This document shows, piece by piece, positions 7,809 to 25,852 of a DNA stretch of 64,000 nt. A program made the position numbers and the translations under genes. Position 1 is the first letter of the stretch. Every line of letters starts with the position of its first letter. The DNA is from Polyangiaceae bacterium (lineage in GTDB: Bacteria > Myxococcota_A > Polyangia > Polyangiales > Polyangiaceae), in assembly GCA_019637295.1 (NCBI GenBank), contig JAHBVX010000007.1:310001-374000 (forward strand), given 5' to 3'. The notes beneath the pieces were generated by a model, which did no database searches, had not been told where the DNA came from, and saw only the letters and a list, made by a program, of their open reading frames with translations.

Positions 7809-8648
7809 TCAGGGGCAGTAGCCGATGGTGCCGTACTGACCGCCCGACAGAGGCGTACAGGTGCCGCCGCCGCAGTCTGCGCTCGAACAGCAGTACTTCT
7901 TGCAGACCCCAGGCTCGCCGGTGCAGCGGTAGCCACCGATGCAGTAGGGGCCCGTGCTGGCGTTGCTGCAGCTCTGGTTCGGCTGCGCGTTGTTGGGCGG
8001 CTCGAAGCAGAGGAACGTGCTCGTGCTCGGAGCCAGATCGCAGGCGTAGCCGGCGGTACACGACGCGTTGGTGAGCGGGTTGCACTGCAGCGTGACGCTC
8101 GGCAGGACGCAGCCCACGGGCAGTCCGCCGCCGCCCGCGCCGCCCGTGCCCCCGGCGCCGCCGACCGGGGGGCCGCCGCCGGTCCCGCCGAAGCCGCCCG
8201 TGGCGCCCGTGCCTCCGAAGCCACCGCTCGGTCCGCCGCCGAAGCCGCCGGCCCCGCCGAAGCCGCCCGCGGCGCCCGTGCCTCCGAAGCCACCGCTCGG
8301 TCCGCCGCCGAAGCCGCCGGCGACCCCGCCGAACCCCGCGGCGCCCCCGAACCCGCCCATGGGCGGCGAGCCTGCCGCTCCGCCGCCGCCGGCAGCGCCC
8401 GCCAGGCCGCCGCTGCCCGCGCCGCTCGACCCGGCGCTCGCGCCCACACCGCCAAAGCCGAAGCCGCCGGAGTTGTTGCCGCCGCTGCCCCCGCTCTCGC
8501 AGTAGCCCTGAGCGCCGCAGACCATGTTGTCCGGGCACGCGCCGCCGTCGTCGCAGGGCAGCGCTCCGCCACCGCTAGCGCCGGAGGAGCACCCCAGCGC
8601 CGCGCCGAGAGCGAGCCAGCACAGCGCGATCGATGTCGAGTGATTCAT
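7809..8648 (-). CDS. Gly-rich lipoprotein with Cys-rich C-terminal modules
   Basis: This is a 279-residue predicted lipoprotein. The lipobox is LGAALGC (Cys20). A small Cys module (PCDDGGACPDNMVCGAQGYC) follows, then about 120 residues of Gly/Ala/Phe linker. Two cysteine modules end the protein: an eight-Cys module starting GCVLPSVTLQCNP and a six-Cys module GVCKKYCCSSADC. The same two modules occur in reverse order in the lipoprotein at 22819-23658, so the two are paralogues by module shuffling. The linker contains a 69-base tandem duplication. The gene precedes the GMC oxidoreductase pair by five bases, so it may be a surface partner of that enzyme. No enzymatic motif is visible. Confidence 0.75.
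   Translation of the reverse strand: MNHSTSIALCWLALGAALGCSSGASGGGALPCDDGGACPDNMVCGAQGYCESGGSGGNNSGGFGFGGVGASAGSSGAGSGGLAGAAGGGGAAGSPPMGGFGGAAGFGGVAGGFGGGPSGGFGGTGAAGGFGGAGGFGGGPSGGFGGTGATGGFGGTGGGPPVGGAGGTGGAGGGGLPVGCVLPSVTLQCNPLTNASCTAGYACDLAPSTSTFLCFEPPNNAQPNQSCSNASTGPYCIGGYRCTGEPGVCKKYCCSSADCGGGTCTPLSGGQYGTIGYCP
8191..8322 (-). repeat. 69-base tandem duplication in lipoprotein linker
   Basis: Two nearly identical copies start at 8191 and 8260 and differ at very few bases. Each encodes a 23-residue Gly/Phe-rich unit containing GGFGGGPSGGFGGTGA. The period is a multiple of three, so copy-number change would keep the frame and alter only the spacer between lipid anchor and Cys modules. Confidence 0.8.
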
Positions 8649-21746: not shown

Positions 21747-22118
21747 ATGGTGGCTCCCGGCTCCCCGCACGGCTCGGGCTTTCAGCCCCCGGGCTACCCA
21801 GCCGCGGGCGGCCCCCCCCTCGGCTATGGCGCTCCCATGGCGCAGTACGGCCCGCAGCCCGGCGCGCCCTACGGCATCGATCCCAAGACGGGCATCGCGT
21901 TCTCCGACAAGCAGAAGCTGATCGGGTTTCTGCTGCAGTTCTTCCTGGGTGCCTTTGGCGCTGGCCGCTTCTACACGGGCCACGTGGCCATCGCCATCGC
22001 CCAGCTGATCGTCACCTGGTGCACCTGCGGGATTGGCGCTTTGTGGCCCACCATCGACGGGATCTTGATGCTCACCGGCTCGGTGACCGACGCTGATGGC
22101 CGGCCGCTGCGCGACTGA
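21747..22118 (+). CDS. TM2 domain membrane protein
   Basis: A 123-residue protein with a Pro/Gly/Tyr-rich cytoplasmic N-terminus (about 1-45: repeated GYP, GYGAP, QPGAPYG) followed by a TM2 domain. The motif KQKLIGFLLQFFLGAFGAGRFYTGHVAIAIAQLI contains the first membrane helix and the conserved G-x-GRFY turn. The second helix ends at WPTIDGILML. TM2 proteins are small inner-membrane proteins of unclear function; Pro/Gly-rich N-termini are common in them. It is divergent from the AhpD-like gene and stands alone upstream of the tRNA. Confidence 0.88.
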   Translation: MVAPGSPHGSGFQPPGYPAAGGPPLGYGAPMAQYGPQPGAPYGIDPKTGIAFSDKQKLIGFLLQFFLGAFGAGRFYTGHVAIAIAQLIVTWCTCGIGALWPTIDGILMLTGSVTDADGRPLRD

Positions 22119-22208
22119 CCGGGCGCGGAAACGAGTTGCCTCACCCCCGCTGAGTGCGCTAAGAGCCGCCGCTCGGGTCGATGACCGGCCCGTTCACGCG
22201 AACCACTC

Positions 22209-22292
22209 GCTGCCCTGGCGGAATTGGCAGACGCGCATGATTCAGGTTCATGTGCCCGAAAGGGTGTCCCGGTTCAAGTCCGGGGGGCAGCA
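22209..22292 (+). tRNA. tRNA-Leu(CAG)
   Basis: The 84-base gene folds as a class II tRNA. The acceptor strands GCTGCCC (22209-22215) and GGGCAGC (22285-22291) pair perfectly. The anticodon stem CATGA/TCATG encloses loop TTCAGGT with anticodon CAG. The long variable arm (TGCCC GAAA GGGTG) and the T arm CCCGG-TTCAAGT-CCGGG are complete. The discriminator is A. CCA is not encoded (next bases CCC). A TAAGAG hexamer at 22160-22165 may be its -10, giving a 40-base leader. Confidence 0.96.
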
Positions 22293-22342
22293 CCCACTCC
22301 CGTCGTGAACGGTCTTTACCCGTTGCCTGTCGGAGCGGCGCG

Positions 22343-22717
22343 GTGAAGCCGGTTGGCCGCGTCTCGCTCAGCGCGCTGAAGGCGGCCGGGCAGCTCCGCG
22401 TCAGCTACCCCCCCTTCGACGTGTGCGTGGTCTGGAGCGACGGTCGGGTCTACGCCATCGAGGACGCCTGCAATCACGCCGGCGCGAGCCTGGCCCAGGG
22501 GCGCGTGCGCGACGGCCTCATTCAGTGCCCCATGCACGGCTACCTGTTCGCGCTCGAGACGGGCGAGCTGGTCGCACCCCGAGGACTCTGCGCCGCCCAG
22601 CGGACCTTCCACGTCGCGCTCGAGGGGGACGACGCAGTTATCGCCGATCCGTTCGACCTCACGGTCACCGACGCCTCGCCTCCCGGTCCGGATCGGGGGG
22701 GCGATTTCTCCGATTGA
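22343..22717 (+). CDS. Rieske [2Fe-2S] ferredoxin-like protein
   Basis: A 124-residue soluble Rieske-type protein. Cluster ligands are C43-x-H45 in DACNHAG and C62-x2-H65 in QCPMHGYLF, separated by 16 residues, which fits ferredoxin-type Rieske proteins of dioxygenase systems or stand-alone carriers. No signal peptide or membrane helix precedes the domain, so it is cytoplasmic. The GTG at 22343 is chosen because longer versions would run into the tRNA-Leu. There is no adjacent oxygenase, so the partner is unknown. Confidence 0.85.
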   Translation: MKPVGRVSLSALKAAGQLRVSYPPFDVCVVWSDGRVYAIEDACNHAGASLAQGRVRDGLIQCPMHGYLFALETGELVAPRGLCAAQRTFHVALEGDDAVIADPFDLTVTDASPPGPDRGGDFSD

Positions 22718-22818
22718 ACGGGGCCGGACTTCGGTCCACACTCCCTCCTTCGGCTCGGCGGCGGCTCCCGAGCACTTCCCCGAGGCTCGCCGTCCCTTAT
22801 CCCTGGAGAACGCACGAC

Positions 22819-23658
22819 ATGAAACGAACTCTCGGACTCATGCTGGTCGCTAGCGCAACCACCGTCGTGATGGTGGGTGCGTGTAGCAGTAACAGCGGTG
22901 GCGGCAACGGGGGCACGGGCGGCGCCGGCGCTGGCAGTGGTACCGGCGGGTTCGTCAGCAACGACAGCGGTCTCGGCGGTTCGAGCGCGACCGGCGGCGG
23001 CGGCAGCGGCGCGACCGGCGGCGGTGGCGGCAGCTGTCAGGGTCTCTGCGGTCAGGCCTATCCGCCCGGCAGCGACGAGAACACGGCCGAGTGCTTCTGC
23101 GACAGCGAGTGCTCGAACTTCGGCGACTGTTGCCCCGACTACCAGACCGTGTGCGGCGGGGGCACCGGCGGCAGCGGCGGCTCGCAGGGCGGCGTGTGTC
23201 GCAAGTACTGTTGCTCGGCGGCGGACTGCGAGGCGAACGAGACCTGCACGGCGCTCAACGCCCAGATGGGGACCCTCGGCACCTGCGTCGCGGGCTCGGG
23301 CACCGGCGGCTCCGGCGGTACCGATAGTGGAACCGGCGGGTCGGCGGGCGCCGCGGGAGCCGCGGGCTCGGACGCCGGCGCGACGGACGCCGGGCCGGCC
23401 CCGGAAGCGGGCAGCGGCGGCAGCGGCACTGGCGGCGGCACCGGGGCGCATGGCGTGCCTACGGGCTGCATCCTGGCCCCCACCACGGTCAACTGTAACC
23501 CCGTGACGAACGCACCCTGCACCACCGGCCAGGCCTGCGATCTGAGCAACCAGAACGCGTTCCAGTGCTTCGACCCGCCGAACACCCAGCAGGCGGGCGA
23601 GAGCTGCAACAACTCGAGCGGCCCGTTCTGCGTCGGCGGCTACGCCTGCGCGCAGTGA
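22819..23658 (+). CDS. Lipoprotein with somatomedin-B-like domain and Cys-rich modules
   Basis: A 279-residue predicted lipoprotein (lipobox MVGAC, Cys22) with a Gly/Ser/Thr linker to about residue 70. Residues 73-112 carry eight cysteines (73, 77, 92, 94, 98, 104, 105, 112) in the spacing of a somatomedin-B domain, including CFCDSEC and DCCPDY. Then come a six-Cys module (127-156, GVCRKYCCSAADC), a second Gly/Ala linker, and an eight-Cys C-terminal module (217-277, GCILAPTTVNCNP). The last two modules are shared, in the opposite order, with the lipoprotein at 7809-8648. SMB domains bind proteins in animals; a surface binding role is an inference. A GGAG lies 11 bases before the ATG. A terminator hairpin follows. 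Confidence 0.8.
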   Translation: MKRTLGLMLVASATTVVMVGACSSNSGGGNGGTGGAGAGSGTGGFVSNDSGLGGSSATGGGGSGATGGGGGSCQGLCGQAYPPGSDENTAECFCDSECSNFGDCCPDYQTVCGGGTGGSGGSQGGVCRKYCCSAADCEANETCTALNAQMGTLGTCVAGSGTGGSGGTDSGTGGSAGAAGAAGSDAGATDAGPAPEAGSGGSGTGGGTGAHGVPTGCILAPTTVNCNPVTNAPCTTGQACDLSNQNAFQCFDPPNTQQAGESCNNSSGPFCVGGYACAQ

Positions 23659-23673
23659 CGCGCGCGCGACGCG

Positions 23674-23698
23674 GGCTCCGGGGTGTGGCCCCGGAGCC
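23674..23698 (+). terminator. Terminator-like hairpin after SMB lipoprotein gene
   Basis: A perfect 10-base inverted repeat, GGCTCCGGGG and CCCCGGAGCC with a five-base loop, sits 15 bases after the stop codon. No T tract follows, as is common in very GC-rich genomes, so it may act as a weak or Rho-assisted terminator. Confidence 0.5.
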
Positions 23699-23765
23699 TC
23701 GCGCGGGCTCGGCGCTCGCGAGAGGGTTGTTTCCGAATCGGCGCCGGTGATTTAGGCTGCTGCCC

Positions 23766-24653
23766 GTGGAGCCCTCCGACGGACGCAAGCCACCCGCCTC
23801 GCTCGCGAGCATGCAGGTGGACGTCACGGCGCGGCTCGGCGCGCAGGCGCCGGCGACGCCGACCGGTCTGCCGGTGCTCGACCGCCTGCTCGGAGGCGGG
23901 CTGCGCACCGGCATGTTGGTCGCCATCAGCGGCGCAACCGGCATCGGAAAGACCGCGCTGGCCCTCAACCTCGCCTACATGGCTGCCCGCTCCAAGGCCG
24001 CGGTCTTGTTCGCGAGCGCCACGCTGGACGAGACGGAGATTGTCGCGCGCCTCGCCTCGCGGGCGCTGCACCGCGAGTACCCGGAGTCCCGCACCTCGTA
24101 TGGCGCCATCTTCACCGGACAAGCGTGGCAGGACGCGGCCACCCGGGGGCCGGTCAGCAGCGCCGTGGACACGGTCGCCAAGAAAGTCGGGGCGCTGCTG
24201 CACTTCCACCGCGCCGATCCCTTCGAGAGCACGACCCTGCTGCGCCGCGCCGCGGGGGAGCTGTGGGACCGACACGATCGAGTGGTCGTGGTGGTCGATG
24301 GGATCGAGGCCTGGGCCGCCCACTGCGGCGGGGACGCCGGGCGCGCCGCGCAGGCCAATTCGAGCCTCGACAGCCGAGTCTCGGTCGTGGCTCACGAGCT
24401 CGCGCGGTTGGGGCGAGGGGCCGCCGTCGTGGTCACCGTCAGCGGTCGGCACGCCGAGCTCGTCGCCCCTGCCGCCACCTTCTCGGCAGAGATGCGGGGC
24501 CTTTCCAGCGGCCTGGCCGCCACCGAGCAGGCGCTCGCGCTGGGCGCCCGCCCGGTCGACCTGCGGGTACGGAAGAACCAGCTCGGTCCAACGGGCATCG
24601 TGCCGCTCCGGTTCGTGGCCGGCGCGGCCACGTTCGAAGAGCGCGCGCCGTGA
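23766..24653 (+). CDS. DnaB/RecA-like P-loop ATPase without N-terminal helicase domain
   Basis: A 295-residue ATPase resembling the C-terminal motor of replicative DnaB helicases. TGLPVLDRLLGGGLRTGMLVAISGATGIGKTALALNLAYMAA contains the Walker A GATGIGKT (about residues 56-63). VVVVVDGIEAWAA is a Walker B-like strand (about 177), and a basic strand end LRVRKNQLGPTGIVPLRF matches the KNRxGxxG region of DnaB/KaiC-type proteins. The DnaB N-terminal primase-binding domain is missing, so it is not the replicative helicase. The GTG at 23766 follows a TAGGCT hexamer at 23753. A regulatory or repair role is possible; the function is unknown. Confidence 0.75.
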   Translation: MEPSDGRKPPASLASMQVDVTARLGAQAPATPTGLPVLDRLLGGGLRTGMLVAISGATGIGKTALALNLAYMAARSKAAVLFASATLDETEIVARLASRALHREYPESRTSYGAIFTGQAWQDAATRGPVSSAVDTVAKKVGALLHFHRADPFESTTLLRRAAGELWDRHDRVVVVVDGIEAWAAHCGGDAGRAAQANSSLDSRVSVVAHELARLGRGAAVVVTVSGRHAELVAPAATFSAEMRGLSSGLAATEQALALGARPVDLRVRKNQLGPTGIVPLRFVAGAATFEERAP

Positions 24654-24706
24654 GGCGCGCGCGGCCCGGGCGTTCAGCGCGGAACTGCGCTAGGCTGGAG
24701 GGCAGC

Positions 24707-25852
24707 TTGAGTCAGGGAGCGCGACTTCTGGGACGGCATCACGCAGCGTTGCTCGGGTGCGTGGCGGCGGCAGTCGGCGCGTGGGCAGGCTGTGGCTCGG
24801 ACGCGACCGCGCCGCCTGGCTCGTCGCTGGGGGGCAGCGGCGGCTCGGGCAACGTCGGCGGCGACGCATCGGCGGGTACCGGCGCGACCATCGACGTGCA
24901 GGTCCCGGATGCGCTCGATCCGGAGACCGCATGCAGCGTGATCACCGAGCAGGCCCAGAGCACGCCGCTGCACCTGTACGTGATGCTCGACAAGTCGAGC
25001 AGCATGGCGGGCAATCAGTGGGACTCGGCCGAGCTCGGGCTGACGGCTTTCGTGAACGCGCCGAGCTCGGCGGGCGTGTCGGTGGGGCTCAAGCTGTTCC
25101 CACGGCCGGGCAGCAGCGTACCGGCGTGCGACCAGCAAGAGTACGCCAAGCCGGACGTCCCCTTCGGTACGCTGCCGGCCAACGCGCAAGCGATCATCAG
25201 CTTCATGGCGAGCGCCAGCCCCAACGGGCTGGGCACGCCGACCTACCCCGCCCTCGGCGGTGCCATCCTCAAGGGCGTCGAGCTCCGACAGAACAACCCC
25301 GGGCACACCGCGGCCGTGCTGCTCGTCACCGACGGCGAGCCGCAGGGGCCGGCCGCGAGCTGCAGCGGGGTCGATCCCGAAGACTGGGCCGCGATCGCTG
25401 GCTTGGCGGCTGCTGGCGCCGCGTTCGACCCGCCGGTGCTGACCTACGTGGTGGGTCTGCCGGGCGTCGATCAGAGCTTCGCCAATCAGATCGCGCAGGC
25501 GGGAGGGACCGCCTCGGCCATCTTGGTCTCGCAGACCAACGTCGCCAAGGAGTTCGAGGAGGCGCTGGCCAAGGTGCGCGGCCAGGCGCTGCCCTGCGAG
25601 TTCGAGATGCCCGCGCAGGTCACGAGCGGGCAGTACGATCCGGACAAGGTGAATGTGGTGCTCGACGCTGGCGGCAAGATCACCAAGATCTTGCAGACCA
25701 CAGACTGCACCGCCGGCGCGGGTTGGTACTACGATGACCCGCTCGATCCGAAGAAGATCCTGCTCTGCCCGGCGATTTGCAGCGACGTCAAGCAGGACTA
25801 CACCGCCAAGCTCGACATCTTGCTCGGCTGCAAGACCGAGACGGTGCGCTGA
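24707..25852 (+). CDS. VWA-domain lipoprotein
   Basis: A 381-residue lipoprotein starting at a TTG (24707) with a good GGAGG five bases upstream. It is rescued from a much longer frame that is noise before this point. The signal ends in VGAWAGC; a short Gly/Ser linker follows. A von Willebrand A domain begins at about residue 85 with an intact MIDAS motif (MLDKSSSM, Asp95) and LLVTDGEPQG. The C-terminal part has several Cys pairs and ends LGCKTETVR. It probably mediates metal-dependent protein binding at the surface. It lies 53 bases after the DnaB-like ATPase gene with its own TAGGCT hexamer (24691-24696). Confidence 0.82.
   Translation: MSQGARLLGRHHAALLGCVAAAVGAWAGCGSDATAPPGSSLGGSGGSGNVGGDASAGTGATIDVQVPDALDPETACSVITEQAQSTPLHLYVMLDKSSSMAGNQWDSAELGLTAFVNAPSSAGVSVGLKLFPRPGSSVPACDQQEYAKPDVPFGTLPANAQAIISFMASASPNGLGTPTYPALGGAILKGVELRQNNPGHTAAVLLVTDGEPQGPAASCSGVDPEDWAAIAGLAAAGAAFDPPVLTYVVGLPGVDQSFANQIAQAGGTASAILVSQTNVAKEFEEALAKVRGQALPCEFEMPAQVTSGQYDPDKVNVVLDAGGKITKILQTTDCTAGAGWYYDDPLDPKKILLCPAICSDVKQDYTAKLDILLGCKTETVR

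Follow-up and report, generated by a model that had tools for sequence, protein, structure and literature searches.

A somatomedin-B domain in a predicted lipoprotein of a Polyangiaceae bacterium and its occurrence in Myxococcota

The predicted lipoprotein P0001 of a Polyangiaceae bacterium carries a bona fide somatomedin-B (SMB) domain, both by sequence and by predicted fold. SMB is regarded as an extracellular module of animals, and PRG4 is an example of an SMB-domain protein. The domain is of a known kind; what is new is the bacterial lipoprotein architecture in which it sits, and its expansion. The window, which is the whole stretch of 64,000 nucleotides that was analysed, contains the following features of the P0001 gene and of a paralogue.

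22819..23658, + strand: P0001 gene with an ATG start, encoding a predicted lipoprotein of 279 amino acids (ORF translation, Pfam)
22819..22884, + strand: predicted signal peptide and lipobox VGA-C, with the candidate lipid-anchor Cys22 and Ser at +2 (sequence reading)
22885..23031, + strand: tether, residues 23-71 (G/A/S/T/N/D = 94%)
23032..23157, + strand: Somatomedin_B (SMB) domain, residues 72-113, eight Cys (Pfam, profiles, predicted fold)
23158..23193, + strand: short Gly-rich linker, residues 114-125 (sequence)
23194..23292, + strand: Cys-rich K module (VCRKYCCSAADC..GTLGTCV), residues 126-158, six Cys, without a Pfam family (sequence, module-order comparison)
23293..23457, + strand: Gly/Ala/Asp-rich linker, residues 159-213 (sequence)
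23458..23655, + strand: Cys-rich N module (GC..CNPVTN..GPFCVGGYAC), residues 214-279, eight Cys (sequence, module-order comparison)
23674..23698, + strand: perfect 10-bp GC hairpin with a 5-base loop, 15 bases past the P0001 stop, without a T run (sequence)
7809..8648, - strand: paralogous predicted lipoprotein with the N and K modules in the usual N-K order and no SMB (module comparison, predicted model)

Several elements of this layout had been put forward in the initial annotation. The lipid anchor proposed there agrees with a signal-peptide-like N-terminus followed by a putative lipobox (V-G-A-C22) with Ser at +2, as read in the sequence; under the +2 rule, Ser at this position marks a lipoprotein of the outer-membrane type. 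The flexible Gly linker is borne out by composition, with Gly, Ala, Ser, Thr, Asn, and Asp accounting for 94% of residues 23-71, and the eight cysteines of the domain are exactly where they had been placed (residues 73, 77, 92, 94, 98, 104, 105, and 112), within which the motifs CFCDSEC and DCCPDY are present. Beyond these eight, residues 126-279 contain 14 further Cys in two modules. No NCBIfam family was found for P0001, no Rfam families were found at 21900-23900, a promoter scan revealed no sigma-70-like promoter for the gene, and a scan around it revealed no consensus terminator. The region holding the 3' hairpin (23659-23718) has a fold z-score of -3.42, and the hairpin is a possible U-less terminator.

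Identity of the somatomedin-B domain

A search against the Pfam Somatomedin_B profile (PF01033), which had been proposed as a check on the domain, gave a significant match at residues 72-113 of P0001 (38.3 bits against a cut-off of 23.1; E 1.7e-9). In a Pfam scan at E values up to 1, Somatomedin_B was the sole match, and none of the other domains of vitronectin, ENPP, or EndoU proteins (hemopexin repeats, phosphodiesterase, and EndoU) was found in P0001. Therefore, P0001 is not filed in any of these whole-protein families. The SMB cysteine spacing that had been claimed, C-x3-C...CxC-x3-C-x5-CC-x6-C, is present at residues 73-112, and its columns align with those of EndoU and ENPP domains. The likeness to PF01033 thus comprises a score above the cut-off, eight Cys in register, the predicted fold, and conserved Asp, Gly, and aromatic residues. 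In contrast to animal SMB domains, that of P0001 is bacterial and lies behind a lipobox and a Gly-rich tether, and bacterial SMB domains have partner domains unlike the animal ones; additionally, its first loop is long, with 14 residues between Cys77 and Cys92. Of the residues that contact PAI-1 and uPAR in vitronectin, the Asp after CxC is kept in P0001 (D95), and the Leu immediately before the next Cys is replaced by Glu97, a partial match that counts against the binding role proposed below.

When the whole of P0001 was compared to PDB sequences with phmmer, EndoU was the top match (E 2e-4), and ENPP2 and ENPP1 matched weakly (E 0.08 and above). A bacterial-only profile, built from 47 SMB domains of the source genome and related bacterial genomes and containing no animal sequences, matched 43 PDB sequences at E values up to 0.01, every one of them an animal SMB protein: EndoU (the best, at 1.2e-15), ENPP1, ENPP2, ENPP3, venom phosphodiesterase, vitronectin (2.2e-7), and SUSD2. 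The agreement extends to non-Cys residues, where P0001 is identical to four animal SMB domains at 18 of 72 compared positions; shuffled sequences have a mean of 4.7 such identities, and 8 of 20,000 reach 18. This test, like the domain tree described below, used four of the six animal domains from the PDB profile search and omitted the second ENPP1 and ENPP2 domains on account of a first Cys spacing other than C-x3-C. The possibility that the SMB assignment is a chance Cys-rich match is rejected on the reciprocal profile matches (43/43) together with the shuffle test; the Pfam score and the 20 matches in the source genome, against none in 14 control genomes, also argue against it.

Animal contamination was considered separately and is also rejected, since the gene is in a contig of 461,715 bases amid bacterial-type genes, and a genome of the same genus also has SMB.

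Across 187 distinct SMB domains, the conserved positions are mainly Cys, Gly, Asp, and aromatic ones, with variable residues between them. All eight Cys are present in 165 of these domains, 21 have end gaps only, and one has end gaps plus a replaced Cys, although Cys conservation is biased upward here because the survey profile was built from domains picked by the eight-Cys pattern. AlphaFold2, applied to the bacterial SMB alignment, predicted a 53-residue model of moderate confidence (mean pLDDT 77.6). This structure prediction, also suggested beforehand, led to SMB-bearing proteins: among the best 50 of 123 Foldseek matches, all are vitronectin or ENPP/venom phosphodiesterase chains, and the top match is the vitronectin SMB from the complex with PAI-1 (1oc0_B; probability 1.00, TM 0.79 by target length). 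The chain is short, and the best Foldseek E value is 0.016, with none at 0.001 or below. VIA-align placed ENPP3 first (Z 5.6, rmsd 3.4, 45 residues aligned), and Z values up to 5.6 are in the range that the tool calls common, so that the match supports an SMB fold without proving it. Overall, the earlier reading of an SMB domain is supported, and its fold is that of a predicted model.

An alternative, already disfavoured and considered very improbable, is that the motif is a convergent eight-Cys mini-protein and not a homologue of animal SMB. Cys-rich profiles can draw in Cys-rich repeats, and one protein of the source genome matches Toxin_12 and Dickkopf_N. Additionally, a tree of 63 SMB domains (four of them animal; 35 columns) has 2 of 60 inner branches starred and indicates neither descent nor the direction of any transfer, and an AU test rejects neither the source-genome SMB domains (p 0.186) nor the animal ones (p 0.458) as one clade. 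However, the non-Cys agreement with animal domains is beyond that of shuffled sequences, the reciprocal profile search returned SMB proteins throughout, and the fold match is to SMB.

Partner domains and the proposed role

The contexts of SMB were compared in 113 non-redundant SMB proteins, which remained after 8 of 121 were dropped for domain sharing and some of which are cut by locus ends. In Pfam, 94 of the 113 pass E 1e-5 for Somatomedin_B and 19 do not. Partner families include SNase (4), Peptidase_S8 (4), TGase_elicitor (4), PAD (3), SpoIID (3), and Trypsin_2 (3), with single cases of M36, M4, M57, M15, and M12-like peptidases, CAP, beta-lactamase, LTD, Kazal, and Antistasin, among others; the frames scanned run from stop to stop, and a few assignments (MJ1316, PPDK_N) are doubtful. 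Families were assigned to loci by reading the sequences together with the Pfam tallies. For instance, SMB is C-terminal in subtilase-like proteins of named Corallococcus and Myxococcus strains (L110, L152, and L165) and in trypsin-like proteins of Acidobacteria (L129 and L133), and it is N-terminal of PAD, SNase, and CAP. As its placement is C-terminal, N-terminal, or internal, SMB moves as an independent unit. Two or more SMB domains are present in 50 of the 113 proteins, and the last SMB lies within 5 residues of the ORF end in 44.

Ten SMB proteins of the source genome were searched with Pfam, and Somatomedin_B was found in nine, with PAD, SpoIID, LTD, and TGase_elicitor as partners; some copies, such as the triple-SMB protein at L053, have no other Pfam domain. 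The protein at L060:4612-5709 has no Somatomedin_B match in Pfam at E 0.1, yet it was matched in the genome search at E 1.1e-4. This locus (C11:41000-52000) contains a lipoprotein-like ORF with tandem CCSGL-type Cys repeats that match Toxin_12 and Dickkopf_N and with an SMB-pattern domain at its end, and a second SMB ORF overlaps the first downstream, in another frame. At L052 and L053 (C25:269000-300000 of the source genome), a stretch of about 22 kb encodes three SMB proteins, one having three tandem SMB domains and one having SpoIID plus two SMB domains. The PAD proteins at L051 (C20:167000-178000 of the source genome), L041, and L049 have one or two SMB domains in front, with PAD at E 3e-86 in L051. 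In a TMED198 MAG, SMB is inside a sequence of the beta-lactamase-type serine hydrolase kind (L153, a locus assigned by eye).

It is proposed, at about even odds, that P0001 is a non-enzymatic lipoprotein whose tethered SMB knot is a protein-binding module at the outer membrane. We infer that Sec would export P0001, that Cys22 would receive the lipid, and that the protein would then be sorted to the outer membrane and stand at or close to the cell surface, with its Cys oxidised in the periplasm. The SMB knot would provide a stiff binding surface, resistant to proteases, on a flexible tether, and could thereby capture a partner protein, be it a secreted enzyme, a matrix component, or the surface of another cell. 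Similarly, where SMB sits beside a secreted hydrolase, it would bring that enzyme to targets of the same sort. A display module is suggested because SMB joins many partner domains, many of which are extracellular-type enzymes. By loose patterns, a MYXO-CTERM-like tail ends 4 of the 113 SMB proteins and a lipobox-like stretch precedes the first SMB in 60 of them, which suggests two ways to an exposed place. The vitronectin SMB binds PAI-1 with a Kd of about 1 nM according to PMC5613068, and this is counted in favour of a binding role. P0001 is like vitronectin in being non-enzymatic, in having SMB near its N-terminus, and in its top fold match, but in Pfam it has PF01033 only and no other vitronectin domain. 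Secreted enzymes of the ENPP, EndoU, and DNase1L5 type have SMB attached to an extracellular hydrolase (PMC9208542), as do many of the bacterial relatives; P0001 differs from these in having no enzyme domain in Pfam, and the bacterial enzymes belong to other families (such as S8, M36, M4, PAD, SNase, and SpoIID).

The main rival to a binding module is a ligand-free disulfide cap with a stability role, which is possible but clearly the less favoured of the two. Here, four disulfides in about 40 residues would stiffen or protect the protein, and the domain in P0001 would be a spacer or shield. PMC9208542 calls SMB function uncertain and states that the C-terminal SMB of DNase1L5 was required to produce active recombinant DNase, which fits a folding or stability role. 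A last SMB at the very end of 44 of the 113 proteins also favours a cap, as does the conservation of Cys, Gly, Asp, and aromatic residues with variable residues between them across the 187 domains. However, variable residues on a fixed scaffold fit diversified binding too, Pfam indicates no catalytic domain in P0001 that would need protection, and the position of SMB in its host proteins varies, with repeats in 50 of the 113. The same 44 proteins ending within 5 residues of an SMB could alternatively mean that SMB, like MYXO-CTERM, is a C-terminal tag that sorts proteins for export to the surface. This is scarcely credible and was rejected, as SMB is non-terminal in P0001 and in the PAD, SNase, CAP, and beta-lactamase-type proteins, and four SMB proteins have a separate MYXO-CTERM-like tail.

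Vitronectin SMB affects proteolysis indirectly, by stabilising PAI-1, and bacterial SMB could regulate surface proteolysis by inhibiting or activating secreted peptidases or by acting as their cofactor. Peptidase hosts are indeed prominent in a set of 56 proteins (four S8, three Trypsin_2, and one each of M36, M4, M57, M15, and M12-like), in which the inhibitor domains Kazal and Antistasin also occur once each. Even so, a proteolytic role is improbable: other hosts, in a set of 57 proteins and in the source genome, carry nuclease, PAD, SpoIID, CAP, or LTD, and neither P0001 nor the triple-SMB protein at L053 has any other Pfam domain.

The second Cys-rich domain and the gene neighbourhood

Other lipoprotein-like ORFs from genomes of the same family also contain the K and N modules of P0001, which there make up an N-K domain with the motif CNPVTN..GPFC..KFCC..DC..GTLGxC (window 7809-8648 and 23194-23655; L062-L088). 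The N-K order is found in 22 of 25 distinct N-module ORFs, among which one has SMB in front and three have two N-K units. The K-N order is found in the other three, namely P0001, L065 (in the same-genus genome, without SMB), and L088 (in the source genome, without SMB), although the 25 ORFs are a small and biased set, lying in loci that were fetched with P0001 itself (its own copy in L001 aside). The paralogue in the window has no Pfam family, and the predicted model of its N-K unit is a 106-residue domain with a mean pLDDT of 90.9 and a pTM of 0.82, which suggests that N-K is one compact unit. The unit has no match among PDB sequences, and a fold search gave no significant match (best E 0.52), an absence that does not imply a new fold. 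Based on this one prediction and the small, biased set of ORFs, P0001 looks like a permuted N-K domain (K-N) to which an SMB has been added.

The genes around P0001 are of ordinary kinds. Those upstream encode a protein kinase, a radical SAM/DUF3641 protein, a CMD protein, and a Rieske protein, and those downstream encode a DnaB/KaiC-like ATPase, a protein rich in Gly, and a DNA polymerase IV-type protein. All four relatives searched have the ATPase, at 64-69% identity, and in three of them the Gly-rich protein (24653-25852, + strand) lies beside it, at about 60% identity. The Gly-rich protein has no Pfam match at E 0.001; it looks secreted and, by eye, resembles a von Willebrand A-type protein with a DKSSSM motif. 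About 6 kb separates the Rieske gene from the ATPase gene in the same-genus genome. No match to P0001 was found in the 12-14 kb around the ATPase of the four relatives, in a search that masked low-complexity sequence and that a diverged copy could escape. Likewise, no full-length relative of P0001 was found in 60 genomes of the family at E values up to 1e-8, which yielded partial relatives only, and no synteny was seen with the same-genus partial relative or with two others in the family. Therefore, P0001 seems to be a lineage-specific addition within a conserved neighbourhood.

At the DNA level, P0001 has 59 matches in its own genome, itself included, the majority of them in Gly linkers. They are not counted as evidence for recombination, because GC-rich Gly codons would by themselves produce such matches.

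Spread among genomes and implications

The initial annotation had regarded SMB as mainly an animal domain, and this view needs correction, as the domain is common in Myxococcota, where it was found in 88 of 377 genomes and 63 of 234 genera. A six-frame search of the source genome (7.65 Mb) gave 20 PF01033 matches, all above the cut-off, distributed over 14 ORFs, some of which contain two or three domains; 14 control genomes gave none. The per-genome counts in Myxococcota are lower bounds, as 19 candidates were scored per genome. Within the family of the source organism the distribution is patchy: five genomes from two genera carry 14 to 19 matches each, a single match is present in each of two others, and at least 20 genomes have none. 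In the phylum around an Acidobacteria match, SMB was found in 3 of 149 genomes, including the genome on which that search was centred, and in the phylum around a Desulfobacterales match it was found in 1 of 148, the centring genome itself. A scan of one genome per species yielded 130 confirmed SMB stretches, of which 80 were kept. By their titles, these comprise 42 from myxobacteria, 18 from Deltaproteobacteria, 13 labelled only Proteobacteria or bacterium, and 7 others, from Acidobacteria (2), Woesearchaeota (2), Thermoanaerobaculia, Thermodesulfovibrionia, and Desulfobacterales. All ten genomes behind ten chosen SMB loci have PF01033 above the cut-off. The two Woesearchaeota contigs (L134 and L158) are from archaeal MAGs whose genomes also score above the Pfam cut-off, and MAG contamination is possible.

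Among the titles listed in searches of a library of open papers, none is on bacterial SMB domains, and no paper there pairs somatomedin B with myxobacteria or somatomedin with Sorangium or Myxococcus. Protein databases may well already list bacterial SMB members. Among known myxobacterial proteins, TraA of Myxococcus xanthus, a polymorphic surface receptor, is comparable as a cell-surface recognition protein. TraA has a Cys-rich region, and its domains are not known to match those of P0001.

The abundance of SMB in the source genome suggests that these bacteria build mosaic exported proteins from animal-like modules. More tentatively, and with rather less than even confidence, some Myxococcota, including the genus of the source organism, may have a counterpart of animal extracellular mosaics, of which P0001 would be a recent shuffling product. 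The latter is suggested by the lack of a full-length relative in 60 genomes, the lack of a match in four relatives, and the permuted second domain. The kit would consist of SMB, the unnamed N-K domain, and other Cys-rich repeats, shuffled between Gly-rich low-complexity tethers. Its modules would be carried on lipoproteins and secreted enzymes, with each SMB a diversified binder for contact with other cells, matrix, or prey. The presence of SMB in 88 of 377 Myxococcota genomes, frequently in multiple copies and on proteins with features of peptidases, PAD, nucleases, or lipoproteins, means either that an animal-type module has been widely reused by bacteria or that the module is older than animals, and the ligands of bacterial SMB domains are a testable question in culturable myxobacteria.
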